Both the position numbers and the translations under genes were made by a program. Below, one piece after another: positions 13,551 to 57,119 of a DNA stretch of 64,000 bases; position 1 is the stretch's first letter, and every line of letters starts with the position of its first letter. The DNA comes from Panorpa germanica (Eukaryota; Arthropoda; Insecta; Mecoptera; Panorpidae), in NCBI GenBank assembly GCA_963678705.1, contig OY783209.1, positions 8,990,001 to 9,054,000 on the forward strand. Direction: 5' to 3'. The notes under the pieces were generated by a model. It was not told the origin of the DNA, made no database searches, and was given only the letters and a program-made list of their open reading frames with translations.

Positions 13551-16500
13551 ATGGAGCGCAAGCGATCCTTCCGTCGTCGACCAGCCCGACCGCCTTTGGG
13601 AGAGCGCGTTAAAGACTACTGTCGACATTTTGCGGCGTTCATGTTCAGCAATGTCGGTATTATAGGTCTCGTGGTTGCCTACACTATTGCAGGTCAGTTA
13701 TTTACCACATTTCTCTTTTCTATTAAAGATCAAAGGATTCACTGTGAATGGGGAAGAAATTTGAATATCTATCTATACACAGAGGACCAGAGACTCTTAT
13801 GTGGAAAATTACTCTAATATATCAATTACGTTTTAAATATATATATATATATATATAAGCAGCATAATCGCAGTAATATAATAAAAAAACATATATTACT
13901 ACCTACTTAAAATGTATAGTTGGATTCTTTTTACCGTCAGATTTTCCTGACTAGGGTCGTATCCCTGCAAGTCGAAACATGCCAATATGATACGCTCGCA
14001 TTACATCTCTTGTTTTTTATGTGTAATTTTATTGTTAATTTCATGTTTTAGAGCATGTGGTTTGTTTTATGTTTTTCCGCTAGGTGCATTTATGTTTATT
14101 GCAATCGAGGGCGGGGATGCTTTAGGAAGATGGGCAGAGGTTGAGAGAAACCGGAAAGAGTTGATAGCAAAGCTCTGGGATGTATCCTGTTGCAGCCACA
14201 ATATCTTCAATGAAACAGCGTTCAGAGAGATGTACGGTATAGACCACATTTATTATATTATATTATTCTTATGTATGTTCTCTCTAGTATATGGATTGTG
14301 GAAATACTTCCAACACATAAAATAGGAATGGATTATAAAAAAATGTTACATTTTCGTTACACACTTGTTACTAACTTGATTTTTTGAAAGTATACGTAAG
14401 CAAAGTGCATTCTCGCAAAACACTAAATGTAGATGTTACCTCACATTCGTGTAATGCGAAGATCATTCTAATATAAACCAGAATCTCGTTCACTGGACTC
14501 ACGTAGTGATGTCAGAAGCGCAACGCGACGGGAAACCGATGGCTAGGGAATGAAGGACAGATAGTGATGTAGACGTCCGCTATCTCAGTGTCACTATGAA
14601 TGAACAGAAAGTACCAACGTTAGTTGCACAATGCGTTATCAATCGTTATCTCTCCAAGGAAGGTGTGAAATTGAGTGAAATTTTGAAGAGACTCCAAGCA
14701 CAGTTCAGTGATACTACTCTGAGTAAAACAAAAATGTTTGAATGAAGTTCAAATGTGTTTTGAGATTGAGTTTTAGTGTTTCTTGTGCGAAAATGTAACA
14801 GTCCTTTCTATGTTAGAATGCTTGCTATACTCGTATATTATATACATATAAAATTCATTAATTATAAACTTAATAAATGAGGTAACATTTTTGAATTATT
14901 CCAGTATAGCAGAAACACTCCAGACTTATCAGAATGACGTGGTAGTTGCAGCACGAGGGGGATGGCCGGGAGGTGATAAAGGAGCCGCGGGAGATAAACA
15001 GTGGTCCTTTTCAGGAGCTTTTCTGTATTCACTCACTGTGATTACAACAATAGGTTATAAAAGAAATATAATTAATGATAAAATACATTAGCCATGTCCA
15101 AGAGCACACTTTTAATAAAAACATTTTAGTTTAGTTCAATGTGTTTGTGAAAAATGAAAATATGTCGACGCAATGAACGTCTATGTAGCAGATACGAGTT
15201 TAGACGAATCTGTAAACTATATAATCTGTCAACATAGTTCATGATGGGGATAGTTTTAGCCTCGAAATTAGCTTAGATTATTTCTTTCTTAGATTTATGA
15301 ATTTTGCAAAGGTGCTAAACAACTTAATGTTTTTTTAGGTTATGGAAATATTTCTCCACGAACGCAATGGGGTAAAATTGCCACGATTTTGTATGCAATT
15401 ATCGGAATGCCATTGTTTTTGTTATACTTATCAAATATAGGTAATAACTGCTTAAAATATTATTTCTTAATAAATATACAACGTTTACATAACATTTTTC
15501 TGTATTGATGTATTATTATTTATTGTTCAGGTGACATATTAGCCAGATCTTTTAAATGGTTGTACGCAAAATGTTGCTTATGTCGGGTTTGTCCATCAGT
15601 GGCACGACGAAGAGAGGAAAGAATGCGAAATAGAGACGCTCCCGCGTGGAGGGTAAGTAAAAAATTAAACTTTGTTAAATCTCTAAGGTTATACATGTCA
15701 ACATTAACAAAATTATTTTAATAGTTACGATACTATCTGGAAACAGCTGAAGGGGGCCCATACATCGAACCTGGAGATTTGGAGCTTACAGATGGTGATG
15801 GAGAAGATGGATCAGATGAGATTCTGTACGATCCAGAGAGAGTTACGGTTCCTCTTACTTTATGTTTAGCAATAATGGTCGGGTAAGTTATACCAGAAGT
15901 ATAATGTTAAACATTTCTTTACGATTTGCAACAGTGGTTTTCAACTCTTTAAATATATGAATTGTCAGTCACTACATTTTCACCTACACCGATTCTGTAT
16001 CTCAAAATGAACCAAATTGGGGTTGCACCACGCATTTCACATAATTATTAATTGTGGACAAGACTAAATTATTAAAGTACTATGAGCATTACTTGTAGAA
16101 CCAAACTTGGGGTTGCACCACGCATTTCACATAATTATTAATTGTGGACAAGACTAAATTATTAAAGTACTATGAGCATTACTTGTAGAACCAAACTTGG
16201 GGTTGCACCACGCATTTCACATAATTATTAATTGTGGACAAGACTAAATTATTAAAGTACTATGAGCATTACTTGTAGAAGTATAGCTACAAATTTAATT
16301 AATTTAACACAAATCTTCAAGACAATAATTTCATTGCTTTTATTAAATATTTATTTCAATTTAACATGTCGAAAAATAAAATACAGACCATATTATAATG
16401 TCTCATATAAAGGTTGTTTGGTAGATTTGCTTGGGCAAATGGTCTAACATTCCTTCAACATCTTCTGTCTTCCTTCATCTTCATCTTATTTATATTTCCC

Positions 16501-17419
16501 AGCTTTATTCTTCGAAGAATTGAAGTTATTATCACTATGTCCTTTCTTAAACTTATTATTTATTAAATTCGGGTAAGACTTATTGTACTTACATATTTTT
16601 GGCTGACCATTGTCGATGGTCTTCGATGGAGAAAGCTTCAAGTAAATCCATCCGAGAAGAAATCCAGACCACACCATAATCGGGTAGGTCATTTCTTTGA
16701 TATTTAATGCGTAAAGAACAAGAGATAGAAGCAGAAACGCAATCGGCAGATGGTCATATGTGAAATTGATGGATTTGATCTTAATGATAGTTTCATCACG
16801 AAAAGCTTTCTTCAAGGATACAGTTGCAGCAGACACATAACCTGACACTCCGTTTATGTTCGGGTAGAAGATCCATGCTATATTTGAGGTTAGGTGAAAT
16901 AGGAGTATGTAGATACCGGATGAGATGATAGCAGTAAGGAAGTTTGTGATTAAGAAGTATTTAAAGATTTCCACGTCTCCCCACAATGGTTTTATCTTCT
17001 TGGCGTGTATCATGATCATGAAGATGTAGATGATGACTTCACTGGTATTTTCCTCCACTATCCAAAATGTTAGGTAGTTACACCAGTCTGACAGATCCAA
17101 CGATGGTTTGACAGTGAAGACAAGATCTTCGCAGTCTATAATGGCGTGCCCCAAAAATATTGCCAGGCATATGATTTGCACAAATCCTGGTGACCGCAAG
17201 GTCAACGTCAGAGAATTCTGAAGAAGATCTAAGGTTTGGTCCACGACAGACATTGTATTCATTTAGAACGTTTTAATCAAATATTATTTAGATTAGAGCA
17301 AAACGTAGGTCACAAAATCTCATCTGTTTTTGACGCTCACTTGTTTTTCAAGGCTAGTTTGAATTGTAATTTTTTTGTTGTCGATATTAAGTTGCACAAT
17401 GTTATCACATCTGCCAGCA

Positions 17420-17503
<84 letters not shown>

Positions 17504-18294
17504 TACTACTACTATATAAACTATCTTGATTAAAACATTACTAATTTCTTTTCTCTTTCCTTCCAACAGTTATATATTTTTCGGAGCAACTCTTTTCTCA
17601 ACATGGGAGAATTGGGATAAAATAGACGGCTCCTACTTTTGCTTCATTTCTTTAAGTTCTATTGGATTTGGGGATATCGTCCCTGGAGATCAGATTACGT
17701 CTTCTGAAGGAGTGGAACTTAGTTTCATTCTTTGTGCCATGTACCTAATAGTTGGCATGGCGTTAATTGCAATGTGCTTTAACTTAATGCAGGTAAGCTG
17801 TGTGTTATTATTATTTAATCCTTTTATATTGTTGAAGCTTTGTTTCTATTAGTCGAGTTGCTTGTAGTGAAACATCTGTAGACGGGTTTAATTTAAGGTA
17901 GTGACAATCGTAGGCAAAGGTACAGTCGCATATTGTGGATAGGATTTTATTTTTTTCTGAGATTAAGCTTTATGATTAAGATATATGTGGTGAACTGTCT
18001 TAAATTCAAGGCAATTTTTATCCTGCACATACCGATTAGCACCCACTATAACTTGTTGTAGATTCTCCTACAACATATATTATTTCTAACTACTTAATAC
18101 TTTCAAAATAAGTCTGAATTTTAATCAGAAGCTACTTCACCAGTATTATCATACCGTTAGTTAAACAAATACCAAATAAAGCAATTTTAATGATGTTGCA
18201 GGAACAAGTAATACATACGATAAGAAAGTACAAAGCTGGAATGAGAAGACTCCTACGTTGCGGAGATGCAGGAACCAGTACCATCCGAAGCTAG
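13551..18294 (+). CDS. Two-pore-domain (K2P/TWIK-type) potassium channel
   Basis: Eight coding exons: 13551-13692, 14084-14231, 14905-15053, 15339-15440, 15531-15652, 15725-15882, 17570-17792 and 18202-18294. All splice sites are GT..AG, all phases match, and the product is 378 residues. Layout: basic N-terminus (MERKRSFRRR); M1 at about 26-58; an extracellular cap loop with a Cys pair; P1 with selectivity filter TTIGYGN at 144-150; M2 at about 158-180; a cytosolic loop with a Cys-rich patch and acidic stretch; M3 at about 262-284; P2 with filter SSIGFGD at 303-309; and M4 at about 320-342, then a short basic tail. K2P channels dimerise in the plasma membrane and carry background K+ current. 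The length is near the short end of the family. The closest named group is probably the insect TWIK/KCNK18-like set, but subfamily is uncertain. Introns hold a mariner relic, a minisatellite, an antisense TMEM115-like gene and a (TA)n tract. Confidence 0.93.
14596..14745 (+). pseudogene. Mariner-type transposase N-terminal relic
   Basis: A 49-codon frame starts at ATG 14596 and ends in TGA at 14743. It carries a mariner/SETMAR-type helix-turn-helix signature: a Gly-Val-Lys-Leu-Ser-Glu-Ile core followed by RLQAQF and a TLSKTK-type segment. The catalytic DDD/E region is absent, so it is a dead fragment. It lies in the second coding intron of the channel gene, in the same orientation. Confidence 0.7.
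16009..16277 (+). repeat. 90 bp minisatellite, three copies, in a channel intron
   Basis: Units begin at 16009, 16098 and 16188 with GAACCAAA(C)TTGGGGTTGC. The second and third units look identical and the first differs by a one-base deletion, giving 89 and 90 bp spacing. The near-identity points to recent expansion or to an assembly-sensitive array whose true copy number may be larger. It lies in the sixth coding intron next to the nested minus-strand gene. Confidence 0.9.
16486..17262 (-). CDS. TMEM115-like Golgi membrane protein, nested intronless gene
   Basis: An uninterrupted 258-codon frame from ATG at 17262 (MNTMSVVDQ) to the stop at 16486. Hydrophobic segments lie near 26-42, 70-87, 101-122, 124-140, 162-180 and 187-205. 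The KPLWGDVEIFKYF stretch at 91-103 matches the hallmark PLWG-x-x-E block of the TMEM115/rhomboid-like family, followed by family-like spacing through GVSGYVSA and the SGFLLGWIYLKL block. TMEM115 proteins are Golgi membrane proteins implicated in retrograde transport. Here the cytosolic tail after about residue 208 is short, Lys/Asn-rich and diverged; typical members run about 100 or more residues longer. The frame lies wholly inside the sixth coding intron of the K2P gene, antisense to it. The lack of introns and altered tail suggest a retrocopy that kept its frame; no poly-A tract or target duplication was found. Family call fairly sure, activity unknown. Confidence 0.75.
   Translation of the reverse strand: MNTMSVVDQTLDLLQNSLTLTLRSPGFVQIICLAIFLGHAIIDCEDLVFTVKPSLDLSDWCNYLTFWIVEENTSEVIIYIFMIMIHAKKIKPLWGDVEIFKYFLITNFLTAIISSGIYILLFHLTSNIAWIFYPNINGVSGYVSAATVSLKKAFRDETIIKIKSINFTYDHLPIAFLLLSLVLYALNIKEMTYPIMVWSGFLLGWIYLKLSPSKTIDNGQPKICKYNKSYPNLINNKFKKGHSDNNFNSSKNKAGKYK
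17419..17502. repeat. (TA)n microsatellite
   Basis: About 80 bp of pure TA dinucleotide, then TACTACTAC, lies between the start of the nested TMEM115-like frame and the seventh coding exon of the channel. The apparent frame across it encodes only a Tyr-Ile repeat and is not a gene. Confidence 0.97.
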
Positions 18295-28764: not shown

Positions 28765-29550
28765 TTAATTGTTTTTTTATTGTTCGCCTTTACAATCTAC
28801 ATTCTTAATACATTTTATATACTTCAACTTACAATTAAATTTAAATTATTCTAAACCTTTTTATTTCCAAAAGTACCTTCTGCTTCTTCTTCTCTTGACC
28901 CTCTTCCTTCATTTTCCCTAGTCTTCCTTCTGGACTGGTCTATTCCCTAGTCTATTTTTCTGGGCTGAAGTTTAACTGTTTCCTCGCTACTTCTTTCTTT
29001 CTCCTGCTTCCCTTCACTGCCTCTTTTAGTACTTCCTTTCTCTTCCTGTTCCTTGTGCAACCCAGCCACCAGCTTATTTATTCTCCTGTTTTTTCTTTCC
29101 TTTTTACTATTTTTGCCATCCACCTCTTTCCTTCACTGCCTCTCTTTAATAGCTGGCCAATATTCCTTTCGCTCGCTACTTTTTCCTTACACTCAAACTT
29201 AATGTGCTCCAGTGTTTCGTCCTCCGCTCCGCACACTCTACACTTTCTTTCCTCACTACTTTCCCAGTATCTGTTTCCTTCTTCCTCATTTCCCAATCTA
29301 AACCTTGCTATTTTTCTTATGTGTTTTATATCTTTTTCTATAAGATACTGAGGCACATTATTTTCCCATAACCTTTTATATCTTGTATTGTAGTTGCCTT
29401 TTTCGATTTTTCCCATTCTCTCCTGTTGTTGTATCTCCTTATCCCTTCTCCTTAGCTCCTCTTCCACACTTGCGCCTCCTTCTCTTCTCCTCTCTGCCTC
29501 CTCGATCGCCATTCCATTCCTTTCAAAATACTCCTTTCTCTTTACTAAAT
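28765..29550 (-). mobile_element. 5'-truncated LINE tail, copy L2, with coding remnant
   Basis: On the minus strand a 144-codon frame (29512-29078) encodes the C-terminal end of a non-LTR retrotransposon polyprotein: Glu/Arg-rich helix, then RIARFRLGNE-like and YWESSEE segments, then a CRVCG-x8-EH-x4-C zinc-knuckle as found after the reverse transcriptase in many insect LINEs. After a frameshift near 29080 the reading continues into the GLHKE-type tail also seen in copy L1, then the 3' UTR to about 28765. The reverse transcriptase and endonuclease are missing, so it is dead on arrival. Confidence 0.8.
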
Positions 29551-29997
29551 AGGCGAGGTGTGTGTTTAAAGAATGGTACAGAGACTAGCTCTAGAACCTT
29601 CTCTGTTTATAGACACCCCGCGCGCGATTTGGGTTCTTTAATTACTGAGCGGATGTTGCTGTAACTAATTATTTAAAGAATAACCACAAAATGTTAAATA
29701 TTTACAACACAGTTATTAGAATTATTTTTATTTCTACTGATTTTAGCACTGACTCACTGGCTGACTGACTGACTTTTCACTGTCTGACTCTGATCGACTC
29801 ACTGACTTAATACTCGGTTGCTCTTATATCTCAACACGCACGCTGCACAATACCCCTTCTCTGGGGATTATCTCATCTTCTAGAATCTTTAAGTGACTTG
29901 TGACTGTGTCAAACTGTTTTCATTGTACCAAATGGTGCTCACCTAGCTTGCATAACTTTCTAACTATACTACGTAGTTTATGGCTGACCCTTAACGG

Positions 29998-55740: not shown

Positions 55741-56364
55741 TGCCTGAACTATTCACCGAGATTTTCCGTCTGGTAATGGTAATGGACGATTCAAACATGG
55801 GTTAACTAAACTACATGCAGAGGCGAACTAGATCTAAGATCGGATAACAGCTATATCAGGAACATGCTTCACTTTAGGCAAGCTAACACCCAAGCTTGCC
55901 TGAAATATTCTCCGAGATTTCCATTCTGGTAATAGAAATGGACGATTCAAACATGGGTTAACTAAACTACGTGCAGAGGCGAACTAGAGCTAAGATCGGA
56001 TAACAGCTATATCAGGAACATGCTTCACTTTAGGTAAGCCAACACCCAAGCTTGCCTGAACTATTCACCGAGATTTCCAGTCTGGTAATGGTAATGGACG
56101 ATTCAAACGTGGGTTAACTAAACTACGTGCAGAGGCGAACTAGATCTAAGATCGGATAACAGCTATATCAGGAACATGATTCACTTTAGGCAAGCTAACA
56201 CGCAAGCTTGTCTGAACTATTCACCGAGATTTTCCGTCTGGTAATGGTAATGGACGATTAAAACATGGGTTAACTAAACTACGAGCAGAGGCGAACTAGA
56301 TCAAGGATCGGATAACAGCTATATCAGGAACATGCTTCACTTTAGGCACGCTAACACCCAAGCT
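55741..56364 (+). repeat. 156 bp tandem array, four units
   Basis: Units start at 55741, 55897, 56053 and 56209, exactly 156 bp apart, with TG(C/T)CTGAA(C/A)TATTC. All contain GGATAACAGCTATATCAGGA and TGGGTTAACTAAACTAC. They differ by scattered substitutions only. Moderately GC-rich against its flanks. No open frame runs through all units. Confidence 0.95.
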
Positions 56365-57119
56365 TACCATTTCGCTACTGCACTAAACTACGAGTAATAG
56401 AAACTAAGGACGAACTTCACAAAATAAACATATAAATTTCAGGTTTAAATTATAATAACAATAACATTTTACGAGTGTTTGTTCAAGAGAAAAATCACAA
56501 TCTAGGTTAGACCCCTGGAATCTGTCCAGGTGTTGAGGTTCACATTGCTGCATCAGCATTTTTATCACAAAGGACGGAATTAGGTCGATGTTACATTTTA
56601 AATTTTTGAATATTGACTTCACGAACACGTTTTGTTTACTTGTCACATAAGTTAAATGTTTGTGGATTTGATTTTTATTTATATTTATGGACTCAAAATG
56701 CGTCGACTAAATTTCGTTTAGTTTTAGAGTTTTCCTTGAAGAAAAATATTGCTGCCTGTAGTCTAGGACATCTGGCATTGAACAGTGCATTCTGGATATG
56801 CAACAATTTCTTTTTCATCAAGTAAAAGGGTTAAACTTAGATTTAAATCTTAGTTTTCGAGACGGGGGTTATTTTTGTCTGTAACTTTTTTATTATAAAA
56901 ATTACAACAAAAAGTGATTATCAAAAGTTAAAGACAATATTGTTATCTACAAGAATCTCTTCTCAAAATTGATTTATGAGTTATATTTTTAAAGAAAAAT
57001 AAAAAAAAATCTGATTTCATCTTAATTTTTAAGATGGTGATAGGAAGTGAGCAACCCTCTCCCAGAAAGCTTAAATTTAAATCAAAGTTTGGCTCAGTTG
57101 CATGATGGATGTGTAATAA
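56365..57119. other. Intergenic, no gene seen
   Basis: Opposing short frames overlap at 56404-56825 without domains. Nothing supported. Confidence 0.45.

Follow-up and report, generated by a model that had tools for sequence, protein, structure and literature searches.

The question raised by this locus is whether an uninterrupted reading frame, lying antisense within an intron of a potassium-channel gene of the scorpionfly Panorpa germanica, is a gene in its own right and, if so, how it is related to TMEM115, whose family it resembles. The window, i.e., the whole stretch of DNA analyzed, comprises 64,000 nucleotides of chromosome 6. With a probability of roughly 0.7, we consider the frame to be an old, protein-coding TMEM115 paralogue on chromosome 6, antisense in a K2P intron, with the ordinary TMEM115 gene on the X. 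The features on which the argument turns, in the coordinates of the window, are as follows.

13551..17792, plus strand: host K2P potassium-channel gene, seven exons recognized from peptide segments, splice sites, and Ion_trans_2 matches.
15883..17569, plus strand: K2P intron of 1,687 bp holding the frame in antisense, with GG/GTAAGT at 15883 and CAG/T at 17570.
16633..17262, minus strand: core of the putative TMEM115 paralogue, residues 1-210, recognized by Pfam PF08551, the family profile, identity to the X copy, and an AF2 model.
16009..16280, unstranded: tandem array of three 90-bp units with 99% matches, directly 3' of the frame and within the K2P intron 15883..17569.
17421..17502, unstranded: perfect (TA)41 microsatellite, 158 bp 5' of the ATG, between the start of the frame and the next K2P exon.

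We take the host to be a K2P channel gene from its two separate pore segments; the Ion_trans_2 domain was matched in three channel-exon frames, at 14852, 15293, and 17520. The flanking K2P exons are on the plus strand, one ending at 15882 and the next beginning at 17570, and a donor site at 17793 indicates that the gene continues beyond 17792. The placement of the frame antisense inside a K2P intron by the sequence-only reading is thus borne out by the splice sites, the frame lying entirely within one intron on the strand opposite to the host. As in nested intronic genes on the strand opposite to a host gene, a single intron of 1.69 kb contains, in antisense, the frame in its entirety along with a candidate poly(A) signal; the host here is a K2P channel. 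In another intron of the same gene, a 63-residue frame (14554-14745, plus strand), which we take to resemble the start of a transposase, had no Pfam match. Elsewhere in the window, a 156-bp unit is repeated in four tandem copies at 55741-56365, and a 168-residue frame at 29081-29584 (minus strand), probably a retrotransposon remnant, gave a subthreshold match to a zinc-binding reverse transcriptase (E = 0.0011). A match of the frame at 2375-2785 to a rotavirus profile was below the cutoff and was taken as chance.

The frame runs from ATG to TAA over 258 codons on the minus strand (16486..17262) without interruption, exactly as had been claimed from the letters alone, although the coding status of its last 35 to 48 codons is doubtful. 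No other run in the window goes as long without a stop; in 60 simulated 64-kb windows (first-order Markov), the longest run did not exceed 171 codons and averaged 126. At the frame's own base composition, the probability of encountering no stop over 210 codons is about 4e-6. Its assignment to the TMEM115 family, based originally on a PLWG signature, was upheld by two profiles. The Pfam model PF08551 (DUF1751, TMEM115) matched residues 63-151 with an E value of 1.4e-11 and 45.2 bits against a cutoff of 22, and a profile built from 120 of the 147 different family proteins collected matched residues 11-210 with 116 bits. The PLWG motif is at residues 92-95, and 19 columns of the alignment are invariant in all 49 rows (48 relatives plus the chromosome 6 frame). 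The same 120-protein profile gave a next best value of only E = 0.6 among the other frames of the window. Past residue 210, the frame showed no match to the conserved cytosolic region (F.Q.HSNG.RGD...SFFP...ERRRQIALKAL), and nothing significant corresponding to that region was found by the profile elsewhere in the window. A recognizable C-terminal half of TMEM115 is therefore absent from the window, and since the cytosolic region is missing, we refer to the frame as a TMEM115 paralogue (core only) rather than as a TMEM115 ortholog.

We then looked for TMEM115 loci in the P. germanica assembly of 464,208,970 bases. Three candidates were scored and two matched: the frame in the window, on chromosome 6 (24,531,805 bp), and an ordinary TMEM115 gene on the X (47,989,005 bp). 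These sizes agree with those given for the species in PMC11464959, namely, a genome of 464.2 Mb, a chromosome 6 of 24.53 Mb, and an X of 47.99 Mb, the longest scaffold. The X-linked gene encodes 391 amino acids in three exons, so a gene of the intron-containing parental type proposed as a check does exist, and the chromosome 6 frame as the sole TMEM115 gene of this genome is ruled out. Both introns are in phase 2, one at codon 236 and the other within RRRQIA, and exon 1 spans residues 1-235 uninterrupted. The flanking genes, which we named by reading their frames, are presumably those for Sec61-alpha and a deoxynucleoside-kinase-like protein. Among the matches listed for the X-linked protein (best 120 of 551), identity was 64% to a damselfly protein, with 97% of its length covered, and 85% to a partial protein, with 61% covered. 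In two trees, made from 62 and 24 family proteins, it grouped with Diptera and Lepidoptera, as expected of a scorpionfly.

The chromosome 6 copy turned out to be far removed from all of these. It has 133 residues fewer than the X copy and shares about 31 to 33% identity with it (30.5% over 210 aligned codons), 28.7 to 34.5% with TMEM115 proteins in the best 25 of 120 BLAST comparisons, and 23 to 29% with the 48 aligned relatives, whereas the matches to fly TMEM115 (best 120 of 703) share 56 to 86% with it. Over the 210 codons, compared in an alignment with seven family proteins, dN between the two copies was 0.70 (NG86), and dS was not computable, which we read as saturation. Identity was found at 11 of 28 shared 4-fold sites, and among the 64 codons specifying the same residue, 25 had the same third base. 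When the frame was searched together with its flanks at the DNA level, the chromosome 6 locus was the sole match. A protein search with the frame, which requires shared five-residue words, gave 541 candidates, none of them a relative at E = 0.001; this search missed even known TMEM115 proteins and excludes only fairly close relatives. The description of the copy as lineage specific accordingly holds only as far as that search reaches. In the trees, its branch amounted to 7.7 to 8.8 changes per column and was drawn beside Lepidoptera, a length that makes the placement unsure and the duplication undatable from the tree. In the AU test, a sister position to the X copy was compatible with the data (P = 0.38), as were deep placements with the horseshoe crab (P = 0.34) and with the horseshoe crab plus a centipede (P = 0.25).

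These distances bear on the age of the copy. Intactness had been ascribed to selection or very recent origin, and only the former survives: with about 69% of the aligned residues differing and dS not computable, very recent origin is ruled out by the divergence from the X copy. The dN of 0.70, together with a dS read as saturated, points to an old copy kept by selection. Since the frame has remained open and the family profile has been kept over such a distance, the copy has most likely evolved under purifying selection during the greater part of its existence. The extreme divergence and the compatible deep placements in the AU test would also fit a second insect TMEM115 of ancient date that scorpionflies have retained and the other sequenced orders have lost. 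This we regard as unlikely, as no relative emerged at E = 0.001 among the 541 candidates (a weak test, known TMEM115 proteins having been missed) and as parsimony prefers a younger copy with fast divergence.

The codon usage of the core was also unlike that of the X copy. GC3 of residues 1-210 was 0.50, compared with a GC content of 0.303 in the remaining intron (z = 6.2), and the core had C/(C+T) and G/(G+A) ratios of 0.53 and 0.40, against 0.54 and 0.40 for RpS3A. GC3 was 0.23 for the X copy, 0.28 for Sec61-alpha, 0.22 for the deoxynucleoside-kinase-like gene, and 0.39 for the K2P gene. It was measured in 12 of 40 actin matches (L015 was left out), the division of which into actin and actin-related was presumed from our reading of the scores. 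Four long actin matches had values of 0.46 to 0.61, and the weaker matches to the actin family that spanned 80 codons or more had 0.27 to 0.29, with one at 0.43; three short pieces (L014, L017, and L020) gave noisy values of 0.43, 0.41, and 0.54, and L013, L016, and L019 contained one to three stops each, with introns inside the match. Two of the actin matches, L009 and L010 (C18:5857100 and C18:5848352), are uninterrupted frames that are separated by about 8.7 kb, scored equally, and have a GC3 close to 0.61. Sec61-alpha is expected to be well expressed. The similarity of the core to RpS3A and the actins, and its dissimilarity to the X copy, suggests high expression somewhere, with the proviso that GC3 was used as a sign of expression from few genes and was low in Sec61-alpha despite the good expression expected of it.

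The end of the frame is of another character, and its features are the following.

16486..16632, minus strand: open tail of 48 codons (residues 211-258) plus stop, unlike TMEM115, with a net charge of +9 and predicted disorder.
16587..16592, minus strand: GTAAGT, the intronic half of a splice donor, in phase 1; the exonic side, TAT, is not donor-like.
16350..16355, minus strand: AATAAA, candidate polyadenylation signal, from the sequence motif.
16344, and 16509 and 16564 inside the tail of the frame, minus strand: further AATAAA starts, from the sequence motif.

The GC content of the tail by codon position was 0.23/0.31/0.38. Past the GTAAGT at 16592 it fell to 0.17/0.25/0.33, compared with 0.39/0.31/0.50 ahead of it, and pLDDT in the AF2 model was below 50 across residues 217-250. 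The GTAAGT is the sole match to GT[AG]AG[TAG] in the frame. Five acceptor-like sites, all weak, follow downstream in the intron and would lead to 0 to 21 residues. The noncoding composition and the GTAAGT mean that what had been called an altered short tail may in part be intron read-through, the coding status of the tail past the GTAAGT being doubtful on its GC of 0.17/0.25/0.33. The tail could thus be either a short basic protein end or an intron with the true end elsewhere. Given the AATAAA positions, the intron could accommodate a transcript of about 0.9 kb or less, and the copy would then constitute a small transcription unit of its own, of about 0.9 kb, inside the K2P intron. The noncoding appearance of the tail is also what would be seen in a nonfunctional fossil or a chance open frame. 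Such an explanation is very improbable for the locus as a whole, in view of the 210 codons left open despite very high divergence, the strong profile match, and a GC3 of the coding type.

As to how the copy arose, it would have come from the X-linked gene, and two routes, each compatible with an old TMEM115 paralogue on chromosome 6, were weighed as variants of its origin. The sequence-only reading had called it a retrocopy. Exon 1 of the X copy, which extends uninterrupted over residues 1-235, contains all of the homology (residues 11-210), so the lack of introns in the chromosome 6 copy is uninformative; a search of 15887-16486 gave no A run of 7 or more, and 17263-17420 shares no direct repeat of 9 or more with 16280-16486. 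That label is therefore not sustained by a missing intron, a poly(A) tract, or a target-site duplication in the flanks searched. Poly(A) tracts and target-site duplications decay with age. A retrogene, in which spliced X TMEM115 mRNA was reverse transcribed into the K2P intron, lost its 3' part, and then diverged, is still plausible, if somewhat short of an even chance. It agrees with a single dispersed copy on another chromosome without nucleotide-level relatives in the DNA search, and X-to-autosome retrogenes have been described in Drosophila and mosquitoes. It agrees less well with a homology that goes no further than a single exon of the X copy, with flanks lacking an A run of 7 and a direct repeat of 9, and with the absence of any significant trace of the C-terminal half from the window.

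The restriction of the homology to one parental exon is what would be expected if exon 1 of TMEM115 had undergone partial duplication at the DNA level and the copy ended at local sequence, an origin that we tentatively retain as possible. The GTAAGT at 16592, just past the homologous part and where the coding signal falls, may in that case splice to a new terminal exon. This donor is in phase 1 in the copy and the parental one in phase 2, however, and none of the five acceptor-like sites downstream in the intron, giving 0 to 21 residues, is strong. The difference in phase also leaves unsupported the identification of the donor-like GTAAGT with intron 1 of the parent.

We next considered what the old paralogue would encode. 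A hydropathy scan gave three membrane segments in the chromosome 6 copy, one fewer than the four of the corresponding part of the X copy. The AF2 model, built from an alignment with 48 relatives that pulls it towards the family fold, predicted a helix bundle with six membrane-spanning helices counted in the core and block means of pLDDT of 84 to 92 over residues 71-210. In a Foldseek search of the model, the best structural matches were rhomboid proteases (GlpG) and pseudoproteases (Derlin-1 and iRhom), with weak E values: the best PDB match, GlpG, had a probability of 1.00, E = 1.2e-3, and an rmsd of 5.2, and no match had an E value below 0.001. A sequence search for solved structures gave no match at E = 1. 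The copy contains GVSG at residues 138-141, and its last helix (residues 192-210) has no histidine; these we take to be the positions of the Ser-His dyad of rhomboid proteases. Unlike those proteases, the copy is without the usual Ser-His catalytic dyad, and the lack of histidine in the last helix led us to treat the protein as a nonprotease. The idea that GVSG restores protease activity was dropped, since at least five aligned relatives have HGLSGY and the last helix has no histidine. With TMEM115 (Drosophila Q9VMD2) the copy shares a PLWG-containing membrane core some 200 residues long, a Pfam match above the cutoff, and a modeled rhomboid-like fold, whereas the cytosolic half, with its F.Q.HSNG.RGD segment and ERRRQIALKAL motif, is present in TMEM115 and absent from the copy. 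The product would thus be a core-only, rhomboid-like membrane protein.

Work on human TMEM115 (PMC4077589) places a Golgi signal in residues 206-229, credits the C-terminal part, in the authors' interpretation, with COG and COPI binding, and describes self-association of constructs with the N-terminal 205 residues. By analogy, the chromosome 6 protein would be located in early secretory membranes, where it would pair with or replace the X-linked protein; its Golgi targeting and its contact with COG would be weaker or altered. Since a construct of residues 1-229 also pulled down COG3 and beta-COP in that study (PMC4077589), loss of the tail need not abolish COG contact. Of the parts distinguished in the human protein, the chromosome 6 protein retains just the N-terminal one; it may form pairs with the product of the X gene or function by itself.

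The chromosomal arrangement is like that of the out-of-the-X duplicates of Drosophila and mosquitoes, in which the ordinary gene is likewise on the X and the diverged copy on an autosome; the present copy is from a scorpionfly. In PMC10715201, the X of this group is regarded as the homologue of the ancient insect X; TMEM115 could, in the opposite direction, have moved to the X later. According to the same source, expression of X-linked genes in male gonads of Panorpa cognata is below that of autosomal ones, and male-biased genes make up 6.1% on the X versus 11.9% on autosomes, whereas testis-specific genes are equally frequent on the X and the autosomes (PMC10715201). The last result weakens the argument from escape from the X. 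An autosomal copy would most likely be needed in the testis; with X-linked genes lower in male gonads and testis-specific genes evenly spread in P. cognata, a role there is plausible but unproven. The reading we favor is a functional X-to-autosome TMEM115 duplicate, possibly of the male germline. The stronger proposal, that a core-only TMEM115 escaped from the X, evolved at an extreme rate, acquired RpS3A- and actin-like codons, and became a dedicated, highly expressed, tail-independent secretory-pathway protein of the male germline or glands, is speculative, and we consider it doubtful.

Nested antisense genes and X-to-autosome duplicates are both known kinds; the unusual part is a TMEM115 that is tail-less, very fast, and codon biased. 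TMEM115 is a slowly changing Golgi gene of arthropods, and a tail-less, fast copy of it would test the membrane core without the cytosolic tail. The locus is, in addition, a candidate X-to-autosome duplicate from a group in which it is disputed whether male genes escape from the X.
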